DNA of 34,656 nt from Bacilli bacterium (GTDB taxonomy: Bacteria; Bacillota_I; Bacilli_A; RF39; UBA660), in assembly GCA_017542065.1 (NCBI GenBank), contig JAFXXX010000014.1, forward strand, positions 1 through 34,656, given 5' to 3'. The notes beneath the pieces were generated by a model that was not told the DNA's origin, searched no databases, and was given only the letters and a program-made list of their open reading frames with translations. Position numbers and translations under genes: made by a program. Below are positions 1,838 through 24,729 of this stretch, piece after piece; positions within the stretch are counted from its first letter, which is position 1, and the number at the start of each line of letters is the position of its first letter.

Positions 1838-3748
1838 ATGAAAAAATATTGCGGAAAAGTAAAAGAATTTATAAAAAAGAACCAATTATTATGTATAGCA
1901 ATTTTAGCTGTTATTGTATTAGCTATTTTTGTATATGTAATATTTTTTAAGTTAAATATAACTACAATTAAATTTACTAAGAAAGTTAGTGGTTCTAAAA
2001 ACTATAGTGTTGAATGTTTAGATACTAATTGTGATTATATTGTAGCATCTAAAGGTGATCAATATGGTAAGTATACTACTAATGTATATAGTGCTAAGGG
2101 TAAGAAAATAGCTAAATTAAATAATACTTACGATTCAAAAGCGTCATATACAGAATCTGTAGTAGAAGCTTCTAAAAACTATATCATTACATCTAAAGTT
2201 GATTATTCAACTAAAAAAGAAATTGGATATGTTTTAAAGAATACTAATGGTAAAGCTAAATATAATTCTAAAACTGAATTAAAAGCTATTACTGATTATT
2301 TAATTAGTGAAAAAACAAATGACGGATATAAAATCATAAACTATAAAGGTAAAACTCTATATAAAGATGTTAAATCTTTAGAAACATTTGGTAATAAAGA
2401 AGTGGTTTCTATTATAACTAAGAGTGAAAACTTAATAGTAGATGCTAAAGGTAAATCTATTCTAAGTGGTTATAGAATTGTTTCTGAAGTATTTGATAAA
2501 AAAGGTAAAGTATTATACTTTGTATTACAAGATGCTTATAAGAATTCATATTATTACTATGATTATAAGAATGATAAATTAGATGAAGATTCATTTAATG
2601 GATATATAAGTGGTAATAATGCTGGTGAATTAATTATTACTGAAAGTAAAAACGGAACATATAAAAAATATCTTTTAAATAAAGATGGTAAGAGAACTGA
2701 ATTATATGGTGAAGATTCAAATGAAATAATTGAAACTATCAAAAAGAAAGTAGATAGTGAAAAATACTATATTTATACTGGAAGTATTGGCAATGAAAAA
2801 ACTAAATATGTTTTAGCAAATGATAGAAAGAATAATACTGCAGGTATTTATAATGTATCATCAAAGAAATATACTAAATTAGTTGATTATTCAAAAGAAA
2901 ATGGAACAATTAATTTAAGAGTATTAAATTCTGAAGAAGATGATCTATATATCATGATTAATTGTAGCGAATCAAATTGTAAGAAGAATACTACAATTGT
3001 TTATGATATGAAGAACAACAACAAAGAATTATTTAGAACAGAATCAGGTAATATGCCTGAAGAATATACTTCATATAAAGATGGTTATAGTGTAGTTAAA
3101 TATGATATTAATTCTTCTGAAGAATATAAGCAAAAATATGTTGTTTATGATAAAAATAACAAAGAATTATATAAGTCAGATAATCAAGTTATTATAGTTA
3201 ATAAAAAGCTAATATTTGGTGAAGAATCATCTAATAAACTAGTATTATTTGATGTTAAGAATAATAAAGCAATTAATAGTGAAGAAAGTTTGGCTACTAA
3301 AATAATTGCAGGAGATTCAACTGCATATAAATATAGTGATAACAAAAATACTTATATTGTAAGTAATAATGGTAAATTATTAGCTAAGATGTCTAATGAT
3401 AATGCTTCATTTACTTATAGTGAAGATACTATTATTTATGTTGAAAATAGTAAGATTAATATTGTTAATATTAAAGACAATAAAGTTAAATCTTATAGAC
3501 TTAAGAAAAACGAAAAAATAAATGATAATAGTGGTCAAAGTATTTATCCATATAAGAATACTATTTATGTTAATAATACTGTGAATAACTATGTTAAAGT
3601 TATTAATGCTAATGGACATGTAGTTAAGAAAATTAATGGAGCAAGCATTAATAGAGTTACTAAGAATCAAAAAACAAATAGAGTTATTTTAATAACTAAG
3701 AAGATTAAAGATAATAATAATTTATATGGATTATATATTTTAAAATAG
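1838..3748 (+). CDS. Membrane-anchored extracellular protein of unknown function, paralogue 1
   Basis: The protein has 636 residues. A basic N-terminus and one hydrophobic segment (about residues 17-37) anchor it, and the remaining ~600 residues, rich in Lys, Asn, Ser and Tyr, are predicted to be outside. They look like repeated beta-strand units ending in turns such as NTNGK, NYKGKT, DAKGKS, NKDGKR and NANGH, reminiscent of WG-repeat or beta-propeller blades, though I do not see a clear WG motif. Two CX4C pairs are present: C60/C65 and C376/C381. It is followed after 20 bases by a colinear paralogue and then by the giant surface-protein gene, which suggests a role at the cell surface. No enzyme motif was recognised. 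GGTGAT decides the start. Confidence 0.85.
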   Translation: MKKYCGKVKEFIKKNQLLCIAILAVIVLAIFVYVIFFKLNITTIKFTKKVSGSKNYSVECLDTNCDYIVASKGDQYGKYTTNVYSAKGKKIAKLNNTYDSKASYTESVVEASKNYIITSKVDYSTKKEIGYVLKNTNGKAKYNSKTELKAITDYLISEKTNDGYKIINYKGKTLYKDVKSLETFGNKEVVSIITKSENLIVDAKGKSILSGYRIVSEVFDKKGKVLYFVLQDAYKNSYYYYDYKNDKLDEDSFNGYISGNNAGELIITESKNGTYKKYLLNKDGKRTELYGEDSNEIIETIKKKVDSEKYYIYTGSIGNEKTKYVLANDRKNNTAGIYNVSSKKYTKLVDYSKENGTINLRVLNSEEDDLYIMINCSESNCKKNTTIVYDMKNNNKELFRTESGNMPEEYTSYKDGYSVVKYDINSSEEYKQKYVVYDKNNKELYKSDNQVIIVNKKLIFGEESSNKLVLFDVKNNKAINSEESLATKIIAGDSTAYKYSDNKNTYIVSNNGKLLAKMSNDNASFTYSEDTIIYVENSKINIVNIKDNKVKSYRLKKNEKINDNSGQSIYPYKNTIYVNNTVNNYVKVINANGHVVKKINGASINRVTKNQKTNRVILITKKIKDNNNLYGLYILK

Positions 3749-3768: not shown

Positions 3769-5583
3769 ATGAAAAAGATATTTAAAAATAGGGTTGTACT
3801 TATTGCTATTTGTTTAGTAATTATAATAGTTTTAGCACTATTAATTATATTTAATAGAACTAATGAAGACATGGTTACTAGAGCAACAAAAGTATTTGGT
3901 AAAAAGTATTATAGAATTAATTGTATTAATACTGATTGCAAATATATGGTTACTTATAAAGGTAGAAATAAAGGCAAAACTGAGATAAAAATTATTAATG
4001 GTAACGGAAAAACTATATCTAAATATGATATTGATTATTCTTCTGATGAATTAATAATGGAACCTGTTAATGCTGCTGAAAAATATGTAATTGTATCTTT
4101 AAAAGATAGTAAGAAATATACACATGGATATGCTGTTTTAAATAATAGTGGTAAAGAAGTATTAAGAGAAGAAGATTATACTTTATATCCAATAACAGAT
4201 AAATATATCTATGGTAAAAAAGATGATCTATATACAATTTATGATTATAAAGGTAATACACTTTATAAAGATGTTAAATATGTTACTTTCTATAATGAAG
4301 GTAAAATAATTACATTTGTGTCTGATAAAGTAAATACTATTGATGAAAATAGTAAAAGAATATTAGATGATTATGAAATAGTAGAAGAAGTAAAAGATGA
4401 TGAAAAAACATTATATTTAATTGTACAAGATGGTAATGGTGTATTCTATTACTTTGATGTTAATAAGTATAAATTAGTTGGAGATTCATTTAATTCTTAC
4501 GTTATTCTTTCTGATAACAAATTAATTGTTACTAGAAAAGCTAATAGTTCTATTAAGAGAGTATTATTAGATACTAATGGTAAAGAAGAAAGTGAAATCT
4601 CACCAAAGAAAGGTATAGCTGATAAAGTAAAAGAAGGTTATACTGTATTTGAAGATAGTATCGTTAGTGCTAAACAAAAAGGTGTATTAGCTACATATGA
4701 AAATAGATTTGGATCATATGATCTAAAGACTGGTGAATTCAACGGATTCTTTAATTTTAAAGGTTCTGAAAAGAGAGTAGAAGCTTATAATATCTATGAA
4801 GATTTAGAAACTGCTAGACTTGAAATTGGATGTTCTAATACTTATTGTGAAAATAGAACAATAGTAGTTTATGATCCATTTAATAACTCTGCAGTATTTA
4901 GTTATGCTGGTGATAAAGAAATAACTAAATATAGAGAATATAAGAATAGTTATAAAGTAGTTATGTTTAGAGATAATACATATGCTTTATTTGATGATAA
5001 GAGTGAATTAGTTCTTGAATCAGCAAATAACATAGTTGTTATTGATGATGAAGAATTAATTAGTGATACTACAGGAAAATCAAATGTATTATTATATTCA
5101 GCAAAAGAAAAGAAACTTCTAAATGATGAAAACTCATTAGCATTATTAGATAATACATCTAACTATGATTTATATAGATATTTTGATGAAAAATATATGT
5201 ATTTATTTAATAAAGAAGGTAAATTATATAAGAGAATTCCTATAGAAGAATCAAGTCTTTCTACTGGGGACAAATATATTCTTCATAGTAAGAAAAACAA
5301 AGTTAATGTTTATAATTTAATAGATAATTCTGATATTACTATTAAACTTGGTAATAATGAAGATACTAATAACTATGAAGGTGTTCCTATTGTTCCAAAT
5401 AAAGGAATGATTGTAGTTAGTAACTATAAAGATAACATTATAAAGATCTATAATTATAAGAAAAAACTTATTAAAAAGATAAAAAAATCTGAAGTTATTA
5501 GTGCAGATTATAATGAAGAAAATAATACAATTTTCTTAGTTACTAAGAAGAGCAAAAAATATAACTTATACATAATAAAATAA
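3769..5583 (+). CDS. Membrane-anchored extracellular protein of unknown function, paralogue 2
   Basis: This 604-residue protein is a colinear paralogue of its upstream neighbour. Matching stretches include YKGNTLYKDVKY (YKGKTLYKDVKS in the first copy), LYLIVQDGNGVFYYFD, GDSFN, and the C-terminal ILITKK/FLVTKK...LY-I-K ending. It has one N-terminal membrane segment (about residues 8-28) and an extracellular region of repeated beta-strand units. The two CX4C pairs are conserved in position (C52/C57 and C355/C360) although overall identity looks low, so they probably form disulfides or a metal site. The ribosome-binding site GTAGGTGA lies in the 20-base gap, so both copies are read from one operon. 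The stop codon opens the terminator stem. Function unknown. Confidence 0.85.
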   Translation: MKKIFKNRVVLIAICLVIIIVLALLIIFNRTNEDMVTRATKVFGKKYYRINCINTDCKYMVTYKGRNKGKTEIKIINGNGKTISKYDIDYSSDELIMEPVNAAEKYVIVSLKDSKKYTHGYAVLNNSGKEVLREEDYTLYPITDKYIYGKKDDLYTIYDYKGNTLYKDVKYVTFYNEGKIITFVSDKVNTIDENSKRILDDYEIVEEVKDDEKTLYLIVQDGNGVFYYFDVNKYKLVGDSFNSYVILSDNKLIVTRKANSSIKRVLLDTNGKEESEISPKKGIADKVKEGYTVFEDSIVSAKQKGVLATYENRFGSYDLKTGEFNGFFNFKGSEKRVEAYNIYEDLETARLEIGCSNTYCENRTIVVYDPFNNSAVFSYAGDKEITKYREYKNSYKVVMFRDNTYALFDDKSELVLESANNIVVIDDEELISDTTGKSNVLLYSAKEKKLLNDENSLALLDNTSNYDLYRYFDEKYMYLFNKEGKLYKRIPIEESSLSTGDKYILHSKKNKVNVYNLIDNSDITIKLGNNEDTNNYEGVPIVPNKGMIVVSNYKDNIIKIYNYKKKLIKKIKKSEVISADYNEENNTIFLVTKKSKKYNLYIIK

Positions 5584-5688: not shown

Positions 5689-8600
5689 ATGAAAAATAAG
5701 AGATTAAGTAAATTAAAATCTAAAAAATATTTAGCAGGAGTATTACTTGTTTTAGTAGTAGGTGTTTTGGCATGTCTACTAAAATTTGGTAACCTAGATA
5801 AGCTTAAAGGAACTATTAAAGTAACTGATGCATATTTATCTAATGTTACTACAAAACTAAGTGCAAACATATCAGATATATCTGGAGATGCACCAGTTGT
5901 AAGTAATGGTTATGATGAAGTTAAGTATGAATTAAAATATAGACTATCTGCATCTAATCAAGATAGAGATGTAATTATTACTGGTACTTTAGATTCTGAT
6001 AATGGTTATGCATCGTTTAAGAGACTATATGGAGATAATGTTACAAGTACTTTATCTGATAATGATAGAAAGATTGAAATAACTATTCGTAATTTACCAG
6101 CTGACACTGAAATTACTACAGTTATTCCTATCGTTGTTAATGGAGCTCCTGATGGATATAGAGTTAATCCTACATTCAAGATTAAAGAATCTACAGCAGA
6201 AGAGTTCACAGATGTTTATACTAATCCTATTCAAGTAAGTACTAATGACTTAAGAGGTACTGTTACAGATGTTGAAGGTAATAGAGTACCAAATATATTA
6301 GTTACTGTTTATAAAAATAAAAAATTAATAAGAGAAACTTATACTAATGATAATGGTGAATATATTATTAGTGATTTAAATCAAGATAATTATACTATTG
6401 ATATCAATGAAGAAATATATGACGTTGTTAATGTTTCAAATGTTAGTGTTAGTGGTGATACTTCGTTAGATATTACAGTTTCAAGAGTATATCCATTTAA
6501 TATTGAAGTTCATAAGTATATTACTAAAGTTGATGTTAATAACTTAGGTATTAATACAGTTAAAACTTATGATAATGCAAGTATAGTTAATTTCCCTGTT
6601 AAGAAATTAAATAATCTTAATGGTAAAGTATACTACAAGATAGTAGTAGAAAATACTGGCGAAAAAGAAGGAATTGTTTCTATAGTAAAAGATGAACTTC
6701 CTGATTTCATGGCATTCATTGAAGATGAAAATAGCGGTTTTGAATTAGTTGATGGTGTAATCTATGATAGAAACTTAGAAGGTATTGAATTAATGCCTGG
6801 CGAGATAGTTGAAGACTCACTTGTATTAACTATTAAAAATACTAGTCAAGCTAGAGAATATCTAAATAGAGTAACTGCTACAGGTGAAATATATGAACAT
6901 GTAGTATATCTATTAGATGGTAACACTTACAGAGAAGAAGATATTCTTGAAGGTGAAAAACTAGATAGAATAGCTGATCCAGTTGCTAACTTTGGTGGTT
7001 GGTATACTGATCCTGAATATACAAATAAATATAATTACAATAATAGAGTTACTAAGAATTTAATTCTTTATGGTAAAACTACTAGAAAATATAGAGTTGA
7101 ATTCTTTGATAAAGATCCAGAAACTGGTGATGAAGATCCTTATAAAGAAGATGAAGTTCCTGCTGGTGATCCAGTAGATGAACCAGATGATCATCCTGAA
7201 CATCCTGGATATGATTTTGAATATTGGTGTATGGTAGATGGTACTAAATATATCTTTAGTACACCAGTAACTGAAGATTTAAAATTAGTTACATGCTATA
7301 AAATAAAGAAATATGATGTTAATTTCTATAACTATCAAGATACTAAAGAAAAGACAATTAAAGTAGAATATAAGAAATTAATTGATCAAAATGAAGCTCC
7401 AACATTTGATGAAACAGGATATACATTTATTTGTTGGACTGAAGATAAAGATAATTGTTTTGACTTTACTACTCCAGTAACAAGGGAAGTAAATCTATAT
7501 CCAAAACATGAAAAACTAAAAAATGCTGTTGTATTCAATGATGAAAATAGAATAACTACAGTTGATAATATTCCTTATGGTGATACTGTTGATCCAATTG
7601 CTGATCAAGGAAAAGAAGGACATACATTTAGATGTTGGTCTGAAGATAGAACTAATTGTTTTAATTTCAATACACCAATAATTGAAACTAAAACATTATA
7701 TGCTATTTATGATATTAATACATATTTAGTTCATTTTATTGATAGAAATCCTGAAACATTAGTAGAAACTCAATATATTCCTGATCAAACAGTTGAATGG
7801 GGAGGATTTGCTACTAGACCTGTTAATAATCCAGAGCATACTGGTTATACATTTGTAGAATGGACAAAAGATAATACAACATATAGTTTTGATACACCTG
7901 TTAAATCTGAAATAACATTAGTATCAAGTTATAGAATTAATTCTTATCCAGTTCATTTCCATGCTGATAGTGAAGTAACTACAGTTAATGTTGAATATAA
8001 ACATACTGTAACTCCTATCACTGATCCAGAAAAAGAACATCATATATTTACTAAATGGTTAGATGAAAATGATGAACCATTTATCTTTACTACTCCAATT
8101 GTTGAAGAAACTGATTTATATGCTGAATTTGAGGAAATATTACCTCCAGTAATTAGTCATACTCCAACTATGTGGACTAATGAAGATGTAACTGCTACAT
8201 TAACTAAGAATGCTAATGTATTAGATGATACTGGTTATACATATTCATATAAATTAGCTAATGGAACATATAATACTTATAGCGCTCCATTTGCAGTATC
8301 AGAAAACACTACTATAACTGCAAAAGGAACTAAGAGTGGCGTTGATTCAGTAGTAACTAACCATGAAATAGTTAATATTGATAAATTAAATCCAAGTATT
8401 ACATTATTTAGTTTAAATACTGTTAATAGAAATTCAGCAGTATTAAATGTTAATACTATAGATAATGAATCTGGTATTAACTATTATGAAGTTTATAAAG
8501 ATAATGTTAAGATTGGTGAAAAACATTTTGAATGTTATAACGAAACTACATTTGATGAATATGAAGCTTGTAGAGCTAATTATGCTGAACAAAAAGTAAC

Positions 8601-11600
8601 TACTTATACTGTTACAGGTTTAACTCAAACAACTACATATACATTCAAAATTAAAGCTTACGATAAAGCTGGTAACTATGTATTTAGTGATGATCTAGAA
8701 GTTACTACAACTACTCCTAGAATAGTTGCTAGATTAATTGGTTATAATAACAGTTTATTTACTGATACAGTAGATGAAAATACTGGAGATGTTATAACTC
8801 CAAAAGAAGATAAATATATCAACTTTGAATCATTAGAAGAAGCTTTTGATTACGAAGATTTATATGATTGTAAGAATGTTCAATGTACTATCCAAATGGT
8901 TACTAGTACAAATGAAAGTGTTCAAGTATTAGAGGGACAAAATCTTACATTAGATTTAAATGGTAAGATTGTTTCTGGAATTATACCTGAATATACTATT
9001 AAGAATAATGGTGATTTCACTTTAATTGAAAGTACAGTTGAAGGAGAAGATCCTGGTAAATTAATTAATAATCAAGGAATAGCTATATTAAATAAAGCTG
9101 AATCTCATTTAACTTTGGGAGAAGGTTATTCAGATGTTAAAGTTAATAATTCATTCGTATCAACTACTAGACCATATGTTTATGGTGAAATAAATGGTGT
9201 TAAGAATGAAACAAATGGATACTTTACTTTATTTGATGGAAAAATAGTTGCTCCTCAAAGTCAAACTCCAGGTTATGGTGCTGTTAATGGTAAAGTTACT
9301 GGTACAGAATATTCATATGAAGCTGTATCTAATGGTGAAATTATTAGTGGTAATAACTATCAAGCAGTAACATTAAATATTTTAACTTCACCTGAAGCTA
9401 GAATTAATAACTCTGTTTATTATTCAAGATTAGCTAGTGCTATGGATGATGCTAATAGAGGAACTACTACTATTTATACAGGTAGTACTCCAACAAACTT
9501 AATGCAAAGTGTTGAATCTAAAGGTGCATTTACATTTGAATATGATGATGTTACAGGTACATTAGTATCACATTCTGGAACTAAAGAGTCAGAAAAAACT
9601 AATTCTTATATAGTAATAGATTTAACTAACGAAACAAAGAATAAAGTCTTAAGCATAGATTATACACCTAGCTATACAGAAGAATACTATAATGATGGTG
9701 GTAACATTTCTACTACAAGTTACTTAACAGGAGTTTGGAGCGGATATGAAATCTTCTCAGTAAACGAATGCCTAGATTATTCTAAGAAGATTCTTGGCAA
9801 TAGTGTTTCTCCATATCGCCATGATTTAGAAAATTATTCGTTTGAACTTGAAAAAGGTAAAATGTATTATTTAGATATGACATATTATAAATATACAAAC
9901 AATTCATATTATCAATATTTAGATGAATTAACAATTAATAATATCACTTTATCTGATTTAGATAAGAATACTAATAATTTTAATGTTCAATCAAATGTTT
10001 CGGTATCTAACTATGGATTCTATTATGATGAATCAGATGGATCTATTAGATCAAGCAATCAATATGTTGCTGAAACAAGTTCAGCTTATGGAATTATTGA
10101 AATAGACTTAACTGAATATGAAGGTAGATATTATGATGTTGAATTGACATATGTTATGCAAAGTTATTATGAGCGTTATAATTCTAATGAAACTGCTCTT
10201 TCATATGCAAAGATCTATATTGGTGAAGATAAACAACCTACTAGTGGTTCTTGGCTTGGTGATAGTTATGGTTCTGGTTATTCTATTCGTAGAAATAAAG
10301 AAGGTTTAGATGTTGATGGTACATCATTTGGTGGTTGGGAGACTTATGGTCCAATAACTAGAACTACATCATTAGATGGTGGTAAAAAATACTATTTAAA
10401 ACTTTCTTATGAAAAGATGGTAAAGAATCCAGATATGTATCCAACTAGAGAAGAATATGAAGCTGCTGGAAACTTAGACCAATTAATTATTACTTCTGTA
10501 GATATTCATAAAAGAGGCGATACATATATATTAAAAAATAGTACTGATACTGTTCCTGTTGAAGGTTACACAGTAATGGAAGATGTATTAAGCAGTTCAA
10601 ATGGTGGATTTGTTCAAAATCAAGATGGTACTATTTCGACAAACTTTACTGCTCCTAACCAAAGAGTAGAAGCTAAGACTACAATTGATTTAACAAATGA
10701 TTCTAAAGGTGCTGCCTTAAGAGTAATTATGGATACTGAAGAAGGAGTTTCAGGTAACGGATATTCTTATGATCTTGATTATCTTTATACTCGAGGATAT
10801 GATGTATACGATTACTTCTACTATAATCAGTCATTCCATAATCATTTGGCTGTTAGACAAAAACGTACAGTAGATGGTGTAGAAAAATTATACGTAATTG
10901 AACCAGGTGATGGATCTTATTGTGACGACAATGGAAGCAATTGTAAACGTAGTTATTTATATAACTTACAAGGCGGATTTGAATATGAAGTTTCAGTAGG
11001 AGTTCAATCTCCTGATATGGTTTTAACTACATATCCTAAATTAACATTTACTGCCTTTGAATTAAATAAACCAAAGAATTATTTGGGTAATTATTTCAAT
11101 AGTCCTGGTGTATCAAATAACTTATTTGGTTTACCATCAACTGAATATAGAGATTCATTTATCAAAATAGATTTAACAGATAAAGAGTATGATCAAGAAT
11201 TATATATTTCAGGTGGTACAGGAAGTTATGTTCAAAACAGAATTTATTTAACAGATAACAATAGAGCATTAACTAAAGAAGAACTTGAAAAGAATAGAAT
11301 ACATATATTAACAACTAATGCAAATGGAAAATACATTCTTGAAAAAGGAAGAGTATATTATCTTCACTTTGCAGGATTTGGTTATGATATGAAATATGGT
11401 CTAGATGACTATGTAAGTTCATATATTAATAATTATACTTGGGGTATTTCTGCAGGAGTATTTTTAGCTCCTGCTCTAGAACATGTTTATTCATTAGGTT
11501 CTTATACAGTATTTACTGGAACATATGATGTTGCTGGTGAAAGAGAAGAAAGTACTTATATTCCTAAGAAAGTAACTAGTGAACCTGTATTTGTTAATAA

Positions 11601-14600
11601 TGATGCTGTATATGGATTTGAATATAATGACGAAACAGGAATGTATGATTCATTAAATGTAAATAATGGAGAAGTTGCAGTTAAAGTATTTAAACTTGAT
11701 TTAACTGATGCTACTTCTGATAGAACATATGCATTTAATACTAATAATGGTGGTAGTAGAAATATCTACACAATAAGTGAAGATGAAAATATTAAACCAC
11801 TAAGTATTTCTACATATATTGAATTATTTGATGACTGGAAATATACTATGCCAGCTGAATATTCAAAAATTGATGACAAACCAACATTCAATTTACAAAA
11901 AGGTAAAGTATATTATTTACAAGTTGTTACATATAATTCAGGTGGGTCAACATTATCATTTAAACTTGATGAAATGAATACAAGTAATTCAACATCTGAA
12001 TTTAATCCAATCAATGAAATTAGAGAATTTAATGAACATGTTGATACAGTTCAATTACTTAGAACTGTTAGTACTACAGCATCTATTGATATTGATTATA
12101 GTGAAGAAGTAGTTCTTGACTTAAATGGTTATGATTTAAGTACAAGTGATGATTATGTTATTAATAACTATGGTAAATTAACGTTAGTTGATACTAAATA
12201 TCAAAGAAAACTTGAAACATATGATTCTGATTTAGCTGAATATCAAGAGTATGCAGGTTTATGTGATGGATGCTCTGTCAGTGAAGAATATAAATTAGAT
12301 CATATTATGGATTACTTAGATGAATTTGGTATTGATTTAAGTAATGTTGATCAATCAAGTATTACTGATTTTGATTACACTGGATCTGTTCAAACTTATG
12401 TTGTTCCTGAAAGTGGTCTATATAAATTAGAAGTTTGGGGTGCACAAGGTGGATCTAGATCTGATTTAAGTAGAGGTGGTAAAGGTGGTTACTCTACAGG
12501 TATTCTTGAATTAGAACAAGGTGAAACTGTATATGTATATGTAGGTGGTTCTGGTAATACTGGTGGAACTGCCGGAGGATTTAACGGTGGTGGTGCTAGA
12601 GACACTTATAATGGTGGTGGTGGTGCCACAGATATAAGAGTTGAAGGCGATTCATTATTTAACAGAATTATTGTTGCCGGTGGTGGTGGTTCTGATGGTT
12701 ACTCTAGCTACGGCGGTGGTGTCGGAGGAGGTACTGTTGGTTACGCAGCATCACAAAGTGGATATGGATCAGGTGGATCTGGTGGTACACAAACATCTCC
12801 TGGTGAAGGCGGAAGCTTTGGTCAAGGTGGTTATGGACAAAATAAAAACGGTGGCTACGGCGGTGCCGGAGGAGGCGGCTGGTTCGGTGGCGGTGCTACT
12901 ACTCCAGACGGTTCTGGCGATGATGACAACGGTGGTGGTGGTGGATCTGGATTTGTATATTTAGATCCAACAAATGCTCCTGTTGGTGGTTATCTAGTAG
13001 AAAATCACTATATATTAACTGGTTCCACAACTGCTGGTAGTGATTACATGATTGCTCCAGATGGTACATATCAATATGGTAATGGTGGCGATGGATACGC
13101 TAGAATCTCTTTAGTTGCTGGTGAAGAGTATTCTCAATTAAGAGAAAACTTACCAAAAACATATAATATTAAGAAGGAACCTAGCTTAGAAGGAATGTCT
13201 CAATTATCTAATGGATCTGGTACAGGTATTATTAGTAATAAAGAAAATGCTTACTTAACTTTAAGAGACGTTAAACTTGATGTTACTTCTAAATATGGTA
13301 TTTATAACGAAGGAACTATTACTACAGAAAGTTCACCAATAATAAATATTAATGCTTTAGATAGTTATGGTATTTATAACATTGGTGGAGATATTGTTAA
13401 TAATGGTAACTTAAAACTAAAACTAAACTATGCTTATTGTTCAACTGACAAAGAATTTGGTGCAGTAGCAATTGCATATAGAACAGGAACACATGATTTA
13501 ACTAACGTTACTATTGAAGGTAGAGCTGGAACAGGTATTATTGTATATCCTAACACTGAAGTAAACTTACATTCATCCAATATTAATATGAATGAATACC
13601 AATATTCAGATTATGATTGTTTATATGCTGAATTTATGAATAATCATGATAGAACAAACAACGTAAATTCTGATCTTTATAATAAGATTTATGATTTTAA
13701 AACTAAATTTGCTAAAAAAGTTTATAGTTATTATTCTTCTGAATATTTTAATAGATATGATGGTTCTATATATAATAGAGGTACCTTTAGAGTTGATGAA
13801 GGTTCAACAGTAGTTGGTCAAATTGGAAACTTCGGAACTTCTTATATTACTGATGGTACAAGTTTCAATAACTTATATCAATATACTAAAGTTCGTGGAA
13901 GAAGAGAAGGCTCTTTCGAAAATCCAAATGCTACAACAAACATTTATAATACAACAGCTAATGTTGATCAAATTGTTAATATTGAAGGTATACTTAATAT
14001 TGGTGAAGATGAAAATAAAACTTTATCATTAACTTCAAAAACTACTTATCCTGCTGTTACAAATATAGGAACAGCTAATATTAATGGTGGTTCAATAGCA
14101 AGTCTTTATAACATGGGTGAATTAAACTCTACAAATGCTACTTATAGTAAACTATATAATTTACATACAGTTTTAACTGGTGGTATTTGTATTGATTCAT
14201 ATCAAAATTTACAAACTAGTGTCTTATGTGAAAAAGATATTAAAGGAACTGCAAATATTACTGGTGGTGAAGTAAACACTAACTTCTTATTAAATGAATA
14301 TAAGATGACATTAGATAGTGTTAATGTTCCATCTAGTATTATGAACCGTGGAGATTTAACTGTTAAAGGTAGTAGTATTATTACTGGTGATGGTAAGTCT
14401 GCTATTCAAAACGTTCCATTCTTAATTAAATACTGGATTCAAGACAATTCATGGTATCATGAGGGAGTTGCAGGTTATAACTATGTTAGAACTTCATTAA
14501 CTATCGGTGATAATGATGGTAATGTAAATGAAGGACCTACAATTACTACAACAGATAGTAATTATGCTATATCTGGTGATTGTCATCCAATGGGTACAGT

Positions 14601-17600
14601 TGGTATGGATGATTTCACATTCAAGAAGAGTGAAATGTATAACTACAATGCTGTATTAAATAAAGATTATCTATATAAAGATGCAAGTGGTAGAGTTAGT
14701 ACATTAGCTACTGAAGATAATGTAAGTGGATTTAATGAGAAGAACTTTATTCCTGTTGAATCTATTGAGTATCCTAATAACTCAGATAATCTATGTGATA
14801 TTAAATATTATGATGGTACTATTCAAAATACATCTACAAGTAGTACTATGACTGATGTTGTATATATACCAATCAGTGATATGACTGATGGATATGATGT
14901 ATTATATGATGGTGCTGGTAAAGTTACTCTAGATACTATTGATAGTTCTGCTAGAAATAGTGTTATAGATGTAAATGGAACTGGTTATAAATCATTACAA
15001 GCAGCTATTAGTAATGCTCCTTCCGGTGCAACTATTAGTGTTACAGAAAACTATAACACTGCTAATAGAGTTACAATTCCTCAAGATAAAGCATTAACAA
15101 TTAATTATGCTAATGGTGTTAGAGTTAACTCATATAGTAAAGATTCACTAATAACAAATAATGGTTCATTAAATGTTACTGGTGCAGGATCAACTTATGT
15201 TGTTGGTCAAACTGCATTTGAAAACAATAATTCAATGACATTTACTAATGGTAACTTTAATAATGTATTTACTCAAAGTAACTTAGTTAAGAATAAGGGA
15301 AATCTAATTATTGATAATCTTGTATCAAATGGATTAGATATTATTTCTGATACTGATAGTGAAGAAAAAATTAGTATGTATATTAATAATGGTGAATTTA
15401 ACACAAATACTATTTATGCTAATAACACTATTGTTCATGTAAATGGTGGATATTTCTATTCTGGTGAAAGCAATGGAAACTATGAAGCATACTATGCTGA
15501 TTCAGTTCAAGATTTAACAACTGCTCATACAAAACAATTATTTAATGCTCATAATTCAATTGTTAACTTTAATGCATTTAATGTTGATAATGATTCAAGA
15601 TACAATAGTATATCTAATGAATCTAACTTAGGTAGATTTGTTGATTCAACACTTAACTTAAATGCTTCTAAGTTTGGTGGTAAATCATCTAAGAGTAGAA
15701 TCTATACTACAATTGCTAATCAAAATAGCAAGAGTATAGTAAATGTTAATGATGGTGAATATACTAACCTTAGATTTAATATTATTGGTGGTGGTAATGA
15801 ATACTACCAAAATAAAGGTACCATTAATGGTTCATTACTTGTAACAGGATCTGGTCATAAAGTTAATGTTACAGGTGGTAAGATTAATTCTAGTGAAGAT
15901 GCTATCTTAATTAAAGATGGTTCTAGTATTGAAGTAACTGTTGGTACAAAAGGTGATTTAAAACCTAATTCAGATAAATTAAATGTATCTAAGACTGAAC
16001 CTGAAATTAGAGGTGGAAACTTCGGTATAACTGAAACTGGTTCGTCTTATGCACAAAACAATTTATATTTCTATGATGGTATATTTAAAGCTAGTGGAGA
16101 TCCAATTGATGCTCACATAGAAGATGTAGAAGTAGGATATGATGTTATCTATGATAACCAAAAGAGCCCTAAAGAAAAATATCTTGATATGTTACCATTA
16201 GTACTTAACTATACTACTGGTAAGTATTACTATGATGCTCAAGAAGCATTTGATGAAGCTAATACAAATGATCAATTAATATGGACAAGAAACTATACTA
16301 ACTTTGCTGATACTCCATCATTAGTAATTGCTCAAGATAAGAAATTTAGTTTATACTTCAGTTATGGAACAGCAACTAATAGACCAATCTATTATGGATA
16401 TTATTTAGATAATCCATCTGCTGATCCACTTAATACTACAGCAAGAGATGAATTTGAACCATATGATGGTACAGGATCATTCTCAGTTGCAGGTATGAGT
16501 GCTGGAGTTAACCGTGTTAAGATTAATAACACATCTTATATTGATGAAAATACTGGTGAAGAAATTGAAAGACCATTTATTATCAATAATGGTGATGTAA
16601 CTATTTATGGTTCTGTTACTCCAGGAGCTGGAGAAGATCCAATATTTGATATTATGACAAGAACAACTGCTATAGTTAATAATGGTACTATGAAATTAAG
16701 TAGATTCTCTGTTAGAAATGTTAAAGCTAATAAAACTATTATTCAAAATAATGGAGATATGGAAATCTATAGAGGTGACTTTATATCATATCAATCAAAT
16801 GTTATTACAAATAATGGAACTCTAAACTTTGTTGGAGATTCTAATGATACATCTAGTTGTTATGTTCCAACTAGTATTAAAGTACATTCAGATCAATCTC
16901 TAGAAGATGCAATTAATTATGCTTTAGAAAATGCATTTATTGATATTCGTTCAATATTATCTGAATCTATTATTAATAATGCGAATGCAACTATGAATAT
17001 TAATTACTTAGTATTTGATAGTGATTACACATATACAGCTTTATTAAATAATGGAACTATGGATGTTCAAAATACTATTATTGAAACATATAAAGGAAAT
17101 AATTTTGAAAAAGCTGCTTTAGCAGGAAAATCAATTATTAATAATAGTGTAATGACTACTACTAACTTACAATTATTCACAGAACAAGGTGTTCAAAATA
17201 ATGGCACTTTAACAACTAATGGTGGTATTATGGATGCTGCATATGATACTGTAGTAACAAATACAGGTATATTCAATATGAATGGTGGTAATATTTTTGG
17301 TGCTAGACAAGGTATTGTTGATACTGGTGAAACACATATTGATAATGCTTATATCAGTACATATGGTGAAGCATATCATGGAACAGGATTTAGTGAATCA
17401 ACTATACTTGGTTCATCAATCAATTCATATGGATACAATACTACAAATTATGAAATATCATATTCAATTAGAACAATATGCTCTCATGATTCTGAATCAA
17501 GTAGAACAGTTAGTGGAAGACCATATCTTGATACAGATAAAGAATTCCCTGAAGGATATTACAAAATTAATAATGCTGTTATTTATATAGGCCCTGGTAA

Positions 17601-20160
17601 ACCATTAAAACTAGGCAAAAATGCATCTGGTTATACACCATATGTTGCATTAGATAGTAGTATGACAATTGAACACTTCTGTGATTATGCTTGGGATAAT
17701 AATTATAATAGATATTATCATTGTGATGCTCCATATGCACATGAAGGTGAAGGCGGAGCAAATTATACTGTAGCTGCTATTGAATCTAACCGTGGTATTA
17801 TTACTATGGAAGGTGGTTCAATAAATCATGGCTCAAGTAATGATTATAAATATGCTATTAACATGTATACAGATAATTCTTATCTTGGCGGAGGATCATT
17901 CACTCAAACTGGTGGTTATGTTTCTAAACTATATAATGATATGGGAACTGTAACTATGGGTACAAAAGATAATAATAATGATTCAAGCCTTCATATAGCA
18001 TCTGCCGCATGTAGTAATAAAGCCGAAAATATATTTAATCTATATGATGGTAGTGTATTTATGAATCAAGATAAACTTTGTCACTTTACTGATAAAGAGA
18101 CAAATTATACTATAATTAGACCTAATGGTGGTCCGTATTCATTAACAAACTCTTCAAATGTAATTGTTAATGTTGAGCAAGATGAACCTTATAGTTCAGT
18201 AAGAGAAGCTATCTCACATGCTAATGCTGGAGAAACATTAAAATTCATTAATAGTGTCTCTGAAGTAACTAGTGATTTTGATATAACTGTTGATAAGAAT
18301 ATAACAATAGATCTATATGGTAATACATTAGATGCTAATCTTGTTATTGATTCTGGTACAACTACAATTACTGATAGTTATTACTTAGAAGACACATCAA
18401 GAACTAAAGGAAAATTATCTAATATTACAGTTAATAATACTGGTACATTAAGTATTACTGAAGGTTCGTTTGATAAGATTATTAATAAGGGAACTGCTAA
18501 TGTTTCTAGTGGTAATATTAAACAAATTGATAATAGTTATGAAAATGCAACAAATAATCCAGTATTAACTATTACTGGTGGTAATGTAGACTATGTCAAT
18601 AACTATGAAGGTGGAACTGCAAATATTAGTAATGCAACAGGAAAAAAATTTATTAATAGAGCATCTGATCATAATAAACAAGGCATAATGAGAGTTACTA
18701 ATTCAACTGTTGAAAGAATTGAAAACTATGCTCCATTTGAAATTGGTGCTGATTCTGAAATAGCATACTTCTATAATGATAGTGGAAGTCAAAATAATCC
18801 AATAGTATTTACTACTGGTACAATCCAACAACTAGAGAATGGTGAATATATAGATATAGATGGTGCAAGAGTATCTAGACTTAATAGTGAGTATGGAGTA
18901 GTAACTGTTCATTCTGGATCTGTTGGAACTCTAATAAATGATAGATTTTCATCTACAACTATTTATGGTGGCGCAGTTGATTATATTAGTAATAAAGCAT
19001 ATGATGATTATTCTGTAACTATTAATAGTGGATCTATTGGTTCAATTAGTAATGACAAGATTTCAGTTCTTATTATTCTTGGTGGTGAAACTAGAGGTAT
19101 TAGTAACCAAGGTGTCTTAACTATTGGTACTAAAGATGGTATTGTTAATACTAATTCACCAAAAATAACTAACTTAAATGGATATGCACTTAGTAGTTCT
19201 GGTTATCAAAGTGCAGTTAATATCTATGATGGTTACTTCAAGAGTAGTAAAACTATAGTAATAGATGCTAATATTGCTGATACTGAACCAGATTATAGTC
19301 CTTATGTAGCTCCTGAATATGATGAACTTGGTGTATTAACTGGAAATCATATAATGTTCTTAAAACATGCTGATGAAGTTGATACTAAGATTGCATGTGT
19401 TCAAGGTATTTGCTATGATACACTTCAACAAGCTATTAATGCGAGTGTACAAAACTATTCTGAGTCAGAAGGTTGTCCTGAAGTTAAGATAGGAGATGAA
19501 TTCTACTTCTCTGTTGAATTAACTGAAGACTTAGTACTAGATCCTCAATATTCATTAACAATTAACTTAAATTACCATAATATTAATGATAATGGTTATA
19601 CAATTCCAGATAACATTACATTAAGAAATGGTTCTAGAAATGGAACTGACTTACAATCTAATATATCTAAGTTATTATCTAATATCTTTGGTATAAATGA
19701 TAATGGTAAAGATATAATTATTACTAGAATGGAAGATGGTAATGCATTAGATACTTCTAAGACTTATAACTTATATAAGTATGAAGGAAGTTCTTATGAA
19801 TTAGTTAAAGTTAATTCTGATGGAGCTGGTAAATATGTTATTGGTAGAAAAACAACTGATTTAAAACCTATTAAAGGTAGAATATATATTAATGATTTAG
19901 ATTCTGGTGAATATAAGTTAGTTGATAATTATAATAATGAATTACAATTTACTATATATGATGATGGAACTCTAAGTCCTAATATTAAAGAAAATATTGT
20001 TTCTGATTTTGGACATATGTCTGCTTCTTCGGTAGCAACATTAGTTATAACAATTCAAACAGGTATATTAAAGATTAATTATATGCTTATAGCTATTTCT
20101 ATAATTGCAGTATTATCTATAATGTTTGTATTAAAAAGAAAATCAGATGCTAATAACTAA
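5689..20160 (+). CDS. Giant multidomain cell-surface protein (4823 residues)
   Basis: A single uninterrupted frame encodes a probable adhesin or cell-surface structural protein. In order: an N-terminal hydrophobic segment (~14-32); a beta-rich region; a CnaB/carboxypeptidase-regulatory-like domain (~188-264, GTVTDVEGN...NGEYIISDL); a DUF11-like region (~268-404); about six InlB/Listeria-Bacteroides-type repeats (~424-815); an FN3-like domain (~900-1010); a beta-solenoid-like block; about five 'IDLT...KGKxYYL' modules (~1280-2100); a glycine-rich ALK/LTK-like domain (~2225-2480); beta-solenoid-like blocks with NNG turns and 'SLxEA...LTIDLNG' headers to ~4700; a SpaA-like domain (~4725-4775); TIQTG (4788-4792), a ~20-residue hydrophobic stretch and KRK. 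The tail has the layout of a sortase signal without LPxTG. Ligand and function are unknown; no catalytic motif was found. Confidence 0.93.
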   Translation: MKNKRLSKLKSKKYLAGVLLVLVVGVLACLLKFGNLDKLKGTIKVTDAYLSNVTTKLSANISDISGDAPVVSNGYDEVKYELKYRLSASNQDRDVIITGTLDSDNGYASFKRLYGDNVTSTLSDNDRKIEITIRNLPADTEITTVIPIVVNGAPDGYRVNPTFKIKESTAEEFTDVYTNPIQVSTNDLRGTVTDVEGNRVPNILVTVYKNKKLIRETYTNDNGEYIISDLNQDNYTIDINEEIYDVVNVSNVSVSGDTSLDITVSRVYPFNIEVHKYITKVDVNNLGINTVKTYDNASIVNFPVKKLNNLNGKVYYKIVVENTGEKEGIVSIVKDELPDFMAFIEDENSGFELVDGVIYDRNLEGIELMPGEIVEDSLVLTIKNTSQAREYLNRVTATGEIYEHVVYLLDGNTYREEDILEGEKLDRIADPVANFGGWYTDPEYTNKYNYNNRVTKNLILYGKTTRKYRVEFFDKDPETGDEDPYKEDEVPAGDPVDEPDDHPEHPGYDFEYWCMVDGTKYIFSTPVTEDLKLVTCYKIKKYDVNFYNYQDTKEKTIKVEYKKLIDQNEAPTFDETGYTFICWTEDKDNCFDFTTPVTREVNLYPKHEKLKNAVVFNDENRITTVDNIPYGDTVDPIADQGKEGHTFRCWSEDRTNCFNFNTPIIETKTLYAIYDINTYLVHFIDRNPETLVETQYIPDQTVEWGGFATRPVNNPEHTGYTFVEWTKDNTTYSFDTPVKSEITLVSSYRINSYPVHFHADSEVTTVNVEYKHTVTPITDPEKEHHIFTKWLDENDEPFIFTTPIVEETDLYAEFEEILPPVISHTPTMWTNEDVTATLTKNANVLDDTGYTYSYKLANGTYNTYSAPFAVSENTTITAKGTKSGVDSVVTNHEIVNIDKLNPSITLFSLNTVNRNSAVLNVNTIDNESGINYYEVYKDNVKIGEKHFECYNETTFDEYEACRANYAEQKVTTYTVTGLTQTTTYTFKIKAYDKAGNYVFSDDLEVTTTTPRIVARLIGYNNSLFTDTVDENTGDVITPKEDKYINFESLEEAFDYEDLYDCKNVQCTIQMVTSTNESVQVLEGQNLTLDLNGKIVSGIIPEYTIKNNGDFTLIESTVEGEDPGKLINNQGIAILNKAESHLTLGEGYSDVKVNNSFVSTTRPYVYGEINGVKNETNGYFTLFDGKIVAPQSQTPGYGAVNGKVTGTEYSYEAVSNGEIISGNNYQAVTLNILTSPEARINNSVYYSRLASAMDDANRGTTTIYTGSTPTNLMQSVESKGAFTFEYDDVTGTLVSHSGTKESEKTNSYIVIDLTNETKNKVLSIDYTPSYTEEYYNDGGNISTTSYLTGVWSGYEIFSVNECLDYSKKILGNSVSPYRHDLENYSFELEKGKMYYLDMTYYKYTNNSYYQYLDELTINNITLSDLDKNTNNFNVQSNVSVSNYGFYYDESDGSIRSSNQYVAETSSAYGIIEIDLTEYEGRYYDVELTYVMQSYYERYNSNETALSYAKIYIGEDKQPTSGSWLGDSYGSGYSIRRNKEGLDVDGTSFGGWETYGPITRTTSLDGGKKYYLKLSYEKMVKNPDMYPTREEYEAAGNLDQLIITSVDIHKRGDTYILKNSTDTVPVEGYTVMEDVLSSSNGGFVQNQDGTISTNFTAPNQRVEAKTTIDLTNDSKGAALRVIMDTEEGVSGNGYSYDLDYLYTRGYDVYDYFYYNQSFHNHLAVRQKRTVDGVEKLYVIEPGDGSYCDDNGSNCKRSYLYNLQGGFEYEVSVGVQSPDMVLTTYPKLTFTAFELNKPKNYLGNYFNSPGVSNNLFGLPSTEYRDSFIKIDLTDKEYDQELYISGGTGSYVQNRIYLTDNNRALTKEELEKNRIHILTTNANGKYILEKGRVYYLHFAGFGYDMKYGLDDYVSSYINNYTWGISAGVFLAPALEHVYSLGSYTVFTGTYDVAGEREESTYIPKKVTSEPVFVNNDAVYGFEYNDETGMYDSLNVNNGEVAVKVFKLDLTDATSDRTYAFNTNNGGSRNIYTISEDENIKPLSISTYIELFDDWKYTMPAEYSKIDDKPTFNLQKGKVYYLQVVTYNSGGSTLSFKLDEMNTSNSTSEFNPINEIREFNEHVDTVQLLRTVSTTASIDIDYSEEVVLDLNGYDLSTSDDYVINNYGKLTLVDTKYQRKLETYDSDLAEYQEYAGLCDGCSVSEEYKLDHIMDYLDEFGIDLSNVDQSSITDFDYTGSVQTYVVPESGLYKLEVWGAQGGSRSDLSRGGKGGYSTGILELEQGETVYVYVGGSGNTGGTAGGFNGGGARDTYNGGGGATDIRVEGDSLFNRIIVAGGGGSDGYSSYGGGVGGGTVGYAASQSGYGSGGSGGTQTSPGEGGSFGQGGYGQNKNGGYGGAGGGGWFGGGATTPDGSGDDDNGGGGGSGFVYLDPTNAPVGGYLVENHYILTGSTTAGSDYMIAPDGTYQYGNGGDGYARISLVAGEEYSQLRENLPKTYNIKKEPSLEGMSQLSNGSGTGIISNKENAYLTLRDVKLDVTSKYGIYNEGTITTESSPIININALDSYGIYNIGGDIVNNGNLKLKLNYAYCSTDKEFGAVAIAYRTGTHDLTNVTIEGRAGTGIIVYPNTEVNLHSSNINMNEYQYSDYDCLYAEFMNNHDRTNNVNSDLYNKIYDFKTKFAKKVYSYYSSEYFNRYDGSIYNRGTFRVDEGSTVVGQIGNFGTSYITDGTSFNNLYQYTKVRGRREGSFENPNATTNIYNTTANVDQIVNIEGILNIGEDENKTLSLTSKTTYPAVTNIGTANINGGSIASLYNMGELNSTNATYSKLYNLHTVLTGGICIDSYQNLQTSVLCEKDIKGTANITGGEVNTNFLLNEYKMTLDSVNVPSSIMNRGDLTVKGSSIITGDGKSAIQNVPFLIKYWIQDNSWYHEGVAGYNYVRTSLTIGDNDGNVNEGPTITTTDSNYAISGDCHPMGTVGMDDFTFKKSEMYNYNAVLNKDYLYKDASGRVSTLATEDNVSGFNEKNFIPVESIEYPNNSDNLCDIKYYDGTIQNTSTSSTMTDVVYIPISDMTDGYDVLYDGAGKVTLDTIDSSARNSVIDVNGTGYKSLQAAISNAPSGATISVTENYNTANRVTIPQDKALTINYANGVRVNSYSKDSLITNNGSLNVTGAGSTYVVGQTAFENNNSMTFTNGNFNNVFTQSNLVKNKGNLIIDNLVSNGLDIISDTDSEEKISMYINNGEFNTNTIYANNTIVHVNGGYFYSGESNGNYEAYYADSVQDLTTAHTKQLFNAHNSIVNFNAFNVDNDSRYNSISNESNLGRFVDSTLNLNASKFGGKSSKSRIYTTIANQNSKSIVNVNDGEYTNLRFNIIGGGNEYYQNKGTINGSLLVTGSGHKVNVTGGKINSSEDAILIKDGSSIEVTVGTKGDLKPNSDKLNVSKTEPEIRGGNFGITETGSSYAQNNLYFYDGIFKASGDPIDAHIEDVEVGYDVIYDNQKSPKEKYLDMLPLVLNYTTGKYYYDAQEAFDEANTNDQLIWTRNYTNFADTPSLVIAQDKKFSLYFSYGTATNRPIYYGYYLDNPSADPLNTTARDEFEPYDGTGSFSVAGMSAGVNRVKINNTSYIDENTGEEIERPFIINNGDVTIYGSVTPGAGEDPIFDIMTRTTAIVNNGTMKLSRFSVRNVKANKTIIQNNGDMEIYRGDFISYQSNVITNNGTLNFVGDSNDTSSCYVPTSIKVHSDQSLEDAINYALENAFIDIRSILSESIINNANATMNINYLVFDSDYTYTALLNNGTMDVQNTIIETYKGNNFEKAALAGKSIINNSVMTTTNLQLFTEQGVQNNGTLTTNGGIMDAAYDTVVTNTGIFNMNGGNIFGARQGIVDTGETHIDNAYISTYGEAYHGTGFSESTILGSSINSYGYNTTNYEISYSIRTICSHDSESSRTVSGRPYLDTDKEFPEGYYKINNAVIYIGPGKPLKLGKNASGYTPYVALDSSMTIEHFCDYAWDNNYNRYYHCDAPYAHEGEGGANYTVAAIESNRGIITMEGGSINHGSSNDYKYAINMYTDNSYLGGGSFTQTGGYVSKLYNDMGTVTMGTKDNNNDSSLHIASAACSNKAENIFNLYDGSVFMNQDKLCHFTDKETNYTIIRPNGGPYSLTNSSNVIVNVEQDEPYSSVREAISHANAGETLKFINSVSEVTSDFDITVDKNITIDLYGNTLDANLVIDSGTTTITDSYYLEDTSRTKGKLSNITVNNTGTLSITEGSFDKIINKGTANVSSGNIKQIDNSYENATNNPVLTITGGNVDYVNNYEGGTANISNATGKKFINRASDHNKQGIMRVTNSTVERIENYAPFEIGADSEIAYFYNDSGSQNNPIVFTTGTIQQLENGEYIDIDGARVSRLNSEYGVVTVHSGSVGTLINDRFSSTTIYGGAVDYISNKAYDDYSVTINSGSIGSISNDKISVLIILGGETRGISNQGVLTIGTKDGIVNTNSPKITNLNGYALSSSGYQSAVNIYDGYFKSSKTIVIDANIADTEPDYSPYVAPEYDELGVLTGNHIMFLKHADEVDTKIACVQGICYDTLQQAINASVQNYSESEGCPEVKIGDEFYFSVELTEDLVLDPQYSLTINLNYHNINDNGYTIPDNITLRNGSRNGTDLQSNISKLLSNIFGINDNGKDIIITRMEDGNALDTSKTYNLYKYEGSSYELVKVNSDGAGKYVIGRKTTDLKPIKGRIYINDLDSGEYKLVDNYNNELQFTIYDDGTLSPNIKENIVSDFGHMSASSVATLVITIQTGILKINYMLIAISIIAVLSIMFVLKRKSDANN
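6958..8130 (+). repeat. InlB/Listeria-Bacteroides-type repeats within the giant protein
   Basis: About six protein repeats of 60-70 residues share the pattern V-F-x-(D/N)...G-(Y/H)-x-F-x-x-W-x-(E/D)-(D/N)...F-x-TP(V/I)...L-Y-x-x-(Y/F). Examples are GYTFICWTEDKDNCFDFTTP, GHTFRCWSEDRTNCFNFNTP and GYTFVEWTKDNTTYSFDTP. This matches the small beta-grasp-like InlB B-repeat, common in surface proteins of Firmicutes. The DNA copies have diverged, so recent duplication is unlikely. Confidence 0.82.
9520..11980 (+). repeat. Unrecognised 'IDLT...KGKxYYL' repeat modules in the giant protein
   Basis: About five modules of 120-170 residues follow one another. Each opens with a short strand segment (FEYDDVTGTLVS, FYYDESDGSIRSS, FVQNQDGTIS, FEYNDETGMYDS), then I-x-(I/L)-DLT (VIDLTNE, EIDLTEYE, TIDLTND, KIDLTDKE, KLDLTDAT). 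Most later carry (L/F)-x-(K/G)-G-(K/R)-x-YYL (LEKGKMYYLDM, LDGGKKYYLKL, LEKGRVYYLHF, LQKGKVYYLQV). In the third copy I find DLT but no clear YYL. The layout suggests a jelly-roll-like extracellular domain, but I do not recognise a named family. Confidence 0.7.
12361..13120 (+). other. Segment encoding an ALK/LTK-like glycine-rich domain
   Basis: Residues ~2225-2478 begin FDYTGSVQTYVVPESGLYK, continue LEVWGAQGG...GGKGGYSTG and run through long glycine tracts to GGDGYARISL. This order (YTGS-QT-(F/Y)-VP, LEVWGAQGG, glycine-rich core, GG-GYARI) is the layout of the glycine-rich domain first described in the ALK and LTK receptor tyrosine kinases, which also occurs in bacterial surface proteins. 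The core is locally GC-rich (38 of 60 bases are G or C at 12841-12900) and uses GGC and GCC codons that are rare in the rest of the gene. Confidence 0.8.
20050..20145 (+). other. C-terminal sorting-like tail of the giant protein (TIQTG, hydrophobic stretch, KRK)
   Basis: TIQTG (residues 4788-4792) precedes a hydrophobic segment (about 4797-4815) and a short basic end, KRKSDANN. The arrangement and spacing match a sortase cell-wall sorting signal, but the LP of LPxTG is replaced by TI. It may be a variant signal or simply a membrane anchor. Confidence 0.55.
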
Positions 20161-24353: not shown

Positions 24354-24729
24354 GGGGCTGTATTTGGCTTCGACAAAATGTTTGAGTATTTTAGGTGCAA
24401 GCCGGAGTGACACGTCACGTCTTTAATAAAATAATTTCAAACAAAATTAAAAACGCATTCGCATCACTATTCAGAGTTAATAGTGCTGCTTTAGCTTAAT
24501 AATTAGTGAGTGCACTTTCTACTACTTATTTTCTGCGTAGGTTTTAGAAGGTTCGATTTAGCAGAATATATTATTATATAGTCTAGATATAATAAAGAAT
24601 CTTATAGACTTACTAAATTAGATGTTGTTAGTTACTTACTAGTTTAGGAAATCTTATAACTAAATAAGCTTGTAGTATCCTATTTATGATACATTTTGGA
24701 CAGGGGTTCGACACCCCTCAGCTCCACCA
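24354..24729 (+). ncRNA. ssrA: Transfer-messenger RNA (tmRNA)
   Basis: tmRNA rescues stalled ribosomes by acting first as alanyl-tRNA and then as a short message for a degradation tag. The 5' end GGGGCTGTATTTGGCTTCGAC pairs with the 3' end AGCTCC-A-CCA, including the G3-U wobble recognised by alanyl-tRNA synthetase. The T arm AGGGG-TTCGACA-CCCCT and an encoded CCA are visible at 24703-24729. The likely tag frame is 24455-24499, starting at GCA after AAAAAC and reading AFASLFRVNSAALA before two TAA stops. The tag thus ends in ALA rather than the common LAA. Length is 376 nt. The smpB neighbour supports the call. Confidence 0.96.

Follow-up and report, generated by a model that had tools for sequence, protein, structure and literature searches.

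An ALK/LTK-type glycine-rich domain as a putative binding head within the beta-solenoid of a giant surface protein from uncultured Bacilli

The stretch of Bacilli DNA analysed here (34,656 nucleotides, hereafter the window) contains a single very large open reading frame (5689-20160, + strand), which encodes a giant surface protein of 4823 aa. Sequence profiles and structure prediction support the assignment of aa 2227-2483 of this protein (12367-13137, + strand) to the ALK/LTK glycine-rich domain (GRD) fold, as a bacterial member composed of a TNF-like sandwich and a glycine lattice and lacking cysteines. The ALK/LTK ligand-binding fold is mainly regarded as a part of animal receptors. We regard the domain as a putative binding head, most likely for adhesion, and put the probability of this reading, which draws on an analogy to phage adhesins, at roughly 60%.

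Pfam family PF12810 (ALK_LTK_GRD) matched aa 2241-2475 (12409-13113) over profile positions 6-242 of 243, with a score of 135.2 bits (E 4.9e-39) against a curated cut-off of 24.5 bits. The initial annotation, made from the sequence alone, had placed an ALK/LTK ligand-binding GRD at 12361-13120 (residues 2220-2480) and had proposed this profile search and a structure prediction as checks; its coordinates agree with the modelled domain, and the identification holds by Pfam, profile and predicted fold. The motifs it listed are all present, namely YTGSVQTYVVP, LEVWGAQGG, GGKGGYSTG, the glycine tracts and GGDGYARISL. As glycine accounts for 80 of the 257 residues (31%), the region might be a low-complexity linker that resembles a GRD in composition only. 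A profile built from 79 relatives, excluding the window domain and its two close orthologues, scored the window domain at 225.8 bits, while the best of 500 residue shuffles scored -23.4; the match is therefore not a matter of glycine composition. The full-length profile match and a confident model with a specific fold match (see below) also speak against such a linker, making it extremely improbable, and a disordered linker was rejected on the model confidence and the negative shuffle scores. A single-sequence phmmer search against PDB gave no match, and an alignment profile was needed to find one: the profile of 18 aligned relatives matched the solved SCD-2, ALK and LTK chains (E 7e-7 to 3e-3), with the alignment to ALK stopping before part of the region that holds the ALKAL cytokine-binding residues.

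The AlphaFold2 model of the domain, built with 82 relatives, had a pLDDT of 94.1 and a pTM of 0.93, with no stretch below 50. In a Foldseek search against PDB, all 21 significant chains (E 3e-7 to 3e-5) were ligand-binding domains of ALK, LTK or SCD-2, and the first match beyond them had an E-value of 0.8. A structural aligner (VIA) gave Z scores of 13.7-15.9 with rmsd of 2.9-4.0 A over 180-190 residues for the same domains, and the next structural match was the tail-tip protein of phage Bxb1 (Z 8.0). The Foldseek TM scores against ALK were modest (0.4-0.5), in line with different loop lengths in the model, and superposition on ALK suggests that the domain contains a hexagonal polyglycine lattice. 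The region is thus matched by PF12810 and confidently folded, the opposite of the disordered glycine linker that the initial annotation had named as the outcome against it. Compared with the TG (TNF-like + glycine-rich) domain of ALK, LTK and C. elegans SCD-2, family and predicted fold are alike over the whole domain, whereas the window domain lacks cysteines, sits on a bacterial solenoid stalk and is about 27% identical when aligned by structure. Membership of the ALK/LTK receptor tyrosine kinases was rejected, because the 4823-aa protein gave no Pfam match to a kinase. No EGF family match was generated in Pfam either, and the GRD is followed by a helix and solenoid.

The giant protein comprises an N-terminal hydrophobic segment and, in Pfam, CarboxypepD_reg, Flg_new repeats and a weak fn3 match. 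The Flg_new (Listeria-Bacteroides) repeats form six stretches at approximately 6901-8190 (+ strand; Pfam E 2e-28), with self-similarity over aa 417-817. Between them and the GRD, at about 9556-11990, lie some five repeats of a beta-rich module (F.YD..TG.....IDLT) that are visible by eye, do not appear in self-BLAST and generate no Pfam match. It also has a large Asn/Thr-rich beta-solenoid and a C-terminal transmembrane (TM) segment with a KRK tail, the solenoid extent and the TM having been assigned by reading the sequence; no LPXTG was seen by eye in the C-terminus. The protein is probably located at the cell surface. It shares its Flg_new repeats, Asn/Thr-rich solenoid and terminal TM with other giant surface proteins of bacteria that combine Flg_new and a beta-solenoid, and differs from them in carrying a GRD within the solenoid via a helical CxxC socket, and in that the heads held by this socket vary among its paralogues.

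The same kind of solenoid repeat is found ahead of the domain (EEVVLDLNGY..YVINNYGKLTLVDT) and past it (SNGSGTGIISNKENAYLTL). A 546-aa model (pLDDT 84.6, pTM 0.64) predicts strands followed by a helical hairpin (aa 2169-2212) and the GRD, after which come a single helix and further strands. The solenoid rungs ahead of the insertion (EEVVLDLNGYDLSTSDDYVINNYGKLTLVDT; 12043-12189, + strand) are strands in this model, and their motif precedes the GRD in paralogues too. The entry linker, or socket, is a predicted helical hairpin with a CxxC motif (12193-12324, + strand; model helices 75-95 and 105-118) and contains AGLCDGC..SEEYKLDH, conserved in paralogues. On the far side, the socket exit helix (13123-13161, + strand; model helix 385-397) begins the stretch YSQLRENLPKTYNIK, in which LPKTYNxK is conserved in paralogues, and the solenoid resumes at 13201-13593 (+ strand; predicted strands 411-541). 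In sequence, the domain is inserted into the beta-solenoid, and it is flanked by a predicted helical collar with CxxC. The initial annotation had put the domain between unknown modules and beta-solenoid blocks; sequence and model refine that placement to an insertion inside a beta-solenoid. Because the pTM of the socket model is only 0.64, the orientation of the head relative to the stalk is unsure. The CxxC itself (12262-12273; Cys aa 2192 and 2195) is conserved in giant proteins that are otherwise poor in cysteine.

The layout and the helix sequences (AGLCDGC..SEEYKLDH ... LPKTYNxK) recur in the giants of contigs 15 and 16 of the same genome and in related genomes, so that sockets and heads could be compared among 14 proteins sharing the socket layout. 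Socket identity and head identity were uncorrelated (rho 0.10, over pairs that are not independent); the proteins G011_C19 and G010_C3, for example, are 73% identical in the socket and 35% in the head. In a GRD tree of 67 rows, the socket heads split into three supported groups, those of the window, contig 15 and contig 16 proteins, and the window head grouped apart from the heads of the other giants in its own genome. The window group lies inside a clade (96/99) that also contains GRDs of phage tails and those of Nomurabacteria, Erysipelothrix, Clostridia and Bacteroidales. Support for the contig 15 group is 100/99, and the contig 16 group joins GRDs of the same bacterial family that are borne on pilins or anchored by a TM segment (larger clade 100/100). 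Forcing all socket heads into one clade, a group chosen for the AU test after a quick tree had been inspected, was 188 lnL units worse and was rejected (AU p 6.9e-75). Two of the 14 sockets are diverged, and the three head groups are independent of those two. The socket-only tree was poorly resolved, with two long rows (G142_C2 and G009_C6), and was used just to show socket likeness, with no branch-by-branch comparison. The simplest reading of these sequence comparisons is head replacement in a conserved socket, probably by recombination, which is more likely than that heads were inserted repeatedly together with the same collar. The giants of contigs 15 and 16 (L008 and L009) also carry a second, shortened GRD, likewise within the solenoid, which lacks the mid-profile segment (approximately positions 123-170), as at aa 3036-3260 of the L008 giant ORF.

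Of the 193 genomes sampled from the order, 84 carried the domain; they represent 43 of 83 genera and belong to one family, and the copy number was often high (up to 14 matches per ~1 Mb genome). Outside that family, a single genome carried it in a class-wide sample of 247 genomes, and the same genome was again the only one in a phylum sample of 295. Scattered occurrences elsewhere include Bacteroidales, Nomurabacteria, Spirochaetaceae, Erysipelothrix, Peribacillus and others, and the domain was absent from all 14 control genomes. Uncultured Bacilli appear in the record titles of the relatives, and many of these come from rumen and gut. Within this one family, the ALK/LTK fold is a surface module of common occurrence.

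Several display contexts were observed. The GRD caps proteins with a type IV prepilin start, two of which (in L030 and L037) carry both N_methyl and GRD in Pfam; the window giant generated no N_methyl or prepilin motif match. In genome G106 (contig 3, about 965872-978276), six type IV pilin-like genes lie consecutively (L116, 1528-11436), each bearing one or two GRDs as its head, a row that resembles a set of alternative tips for a pilus. The genomes with pilin-borne GRDs hold the pilus platform family PF00482, which was not found in the window genome (81% complete) or in G006, giving no type IV pilus link there. In other proteins, GRDs occur in tandem and alternate with cadherin-like or Flg_new modules. 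On phage contigs, GRD protein genes directly follow the tape-measure and tail genes. The window domain matches PHROG 1589, 7388 and 5811, for which the PHROG listing gives no function, and its model matched predicted phage proteins at TM 0.9. Phage tail GRD proteins also include Pam3 gp24, which is reported to resemble SCD-2 and was compared with it by its authors (PMC9608196), and the Bxb1 tail tip (9d93). The phage GRDs are tail parts beside tape-measure genes, whereas the window GRD belongs to a cellular surface protein with orthologues at a fixed chromosomal place. A few genes past the phage GRD protein, L122 encodes at 8319-9317 a second glycine-rich tail protein of another kind (PHROG 863, tail fiber assembly).

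The domain alignment contains 41 glycines and 28 other residues that are near-invariant, and between them many segments vary in sequence and length (e.g. 4-30 residues). This pattern resembles the variable loops tied to receptor binding in gp38 and Pam3 gp24 (PMC12892980, PMC9608196). In gp38 of phages S16 and PP01, a constant glycine stem bears hypervariable receptor loops (PMC12892980), and a beta-helix domain stands where the TNF-like sandwich would be (PMC9608196). These polyglycine-II adhesins serve as a working analogy for hypervariable receptor loops on a glycine lattice; gp38 of S16 is not among the structural matches listed, though the folds may still be alike. As conserved glycines with variable loops are like those of phage polyglycine adhesins, the domain is held to be a binding head. 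Hypervariable loops could also arise without binding, from relaxed constraint or from immune or phage pressure, and the glycine-rich domain of a C. difficile prophage receptor-binding protein, which is N-terminal, lacks a demonstrated role of its own (PMC9615553).

Two other functions were considered. The GRD might pack on itself or on neighbouring stalks, as happens with GRDs in trimeric phage fibres, and organise a surface layer, with neutral loop variation. Pam3 gp24 is part of a trimeric fibre (PMC9608196), the window domain lies mid-protein instead of at a tip, and cadherin-like and Flg_new modules are interleaved with the tandem GRDs in a spacer-like manner, all of which would suit such an assembly module. 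A conserved socket that holds different head subfamilies would be odd for a specific self-assembly interface, however, and GRDs also cap pilin-like proteins; we consider this module unlikely. Of the two options raised by the initial annotation, a glycan- or protein-binding head is better supported than an assembly interface. The other possibility is that the head has a surface glycan or a wall polymer of bacteria as its ligand, holding the protein on its own wall or clumping kin. Phage tail GRDs must touch bacteria, the window head falls in a supported clade with them, and it is 56-61% identical to the nearest of them, compared with 41% for the main heads carried by its paralogues. A phage GRD could, though, be a structural tail part, and the clade also holds GRDs of cellular proteins in many phyla, so that binding to wall or kin seems rather improbable.

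For the binding head, we propose the following arrangement. The TNF-like beta-sandwich would carry a stiff lattice of glycine strands, and the variable loops between the conserved glycine tracts would form the ligand site. The helical socket would hold the head sideways on the long beta-solenoid stalk, and the membrane-anchored giant protein would present it outside the cell. The head would act as a module, with other subfamilies occupying the same socket and the same head used on pilin-like proteins, tandem-domain surface proteins and phage tails. By adhesion, it would most likely attach the cell to surfaces, either of the host or of neighbouring bacteria, with a specificity set by the head. 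More tentatively, ALK-type GRD heads may form a cassette system, moving between the tails of phages, pilin-like proteins and giant stalks and into the conserved helical socket, so that a bacterium would change the binding of its stalk by exchanging one head for another, some of them shared with phages.

Bacterial members of PF12810 are already in Pfam, and their use by phages is published. The literature searched yielded no description of GRD surface proteins in bacteria; it was mostly open-access, making the absence weak evidence. Nor did this limited search return a description of the solenoid-inserted socket, of different heads per socket or of pilin-borne head arrays. The stalks, pilin-like proteins and phage tails offer a natural sequence set for how a glycine lattice sets binding specificity, and the bacterial GRDs bear on the origin of the animal ALK/LTK domain. 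The GRD heads also point to a way in which gut bacteria that still resist cultivation may adhere.

Upstream of the giant gene, the window encodes a single-TM protein of 636 aa (1838-3748, + strand) and a 604-aa paralogue of it (3769-5583, + strand), neither of which matched a Pfam family. The orthologues of the giant gene in G006 and G001 retain both genes, and the contig 16 giant, too, has one homologue ahead of it; the two are possibly partner genes of the giant. The G006 locus further keeps EF-Tu, a FemX-like gene, enolase, secG, rnr and smpB around the giant gene. As this neighbourhood is kept in the orthologues, the giant gene is a stable chromosomal gene and not an assembly accident. In the window, smpB is followed by a tmRNA gene at 24354-24729, missed by ARAGORN and detected with Rfam RF00023 (137 bits).
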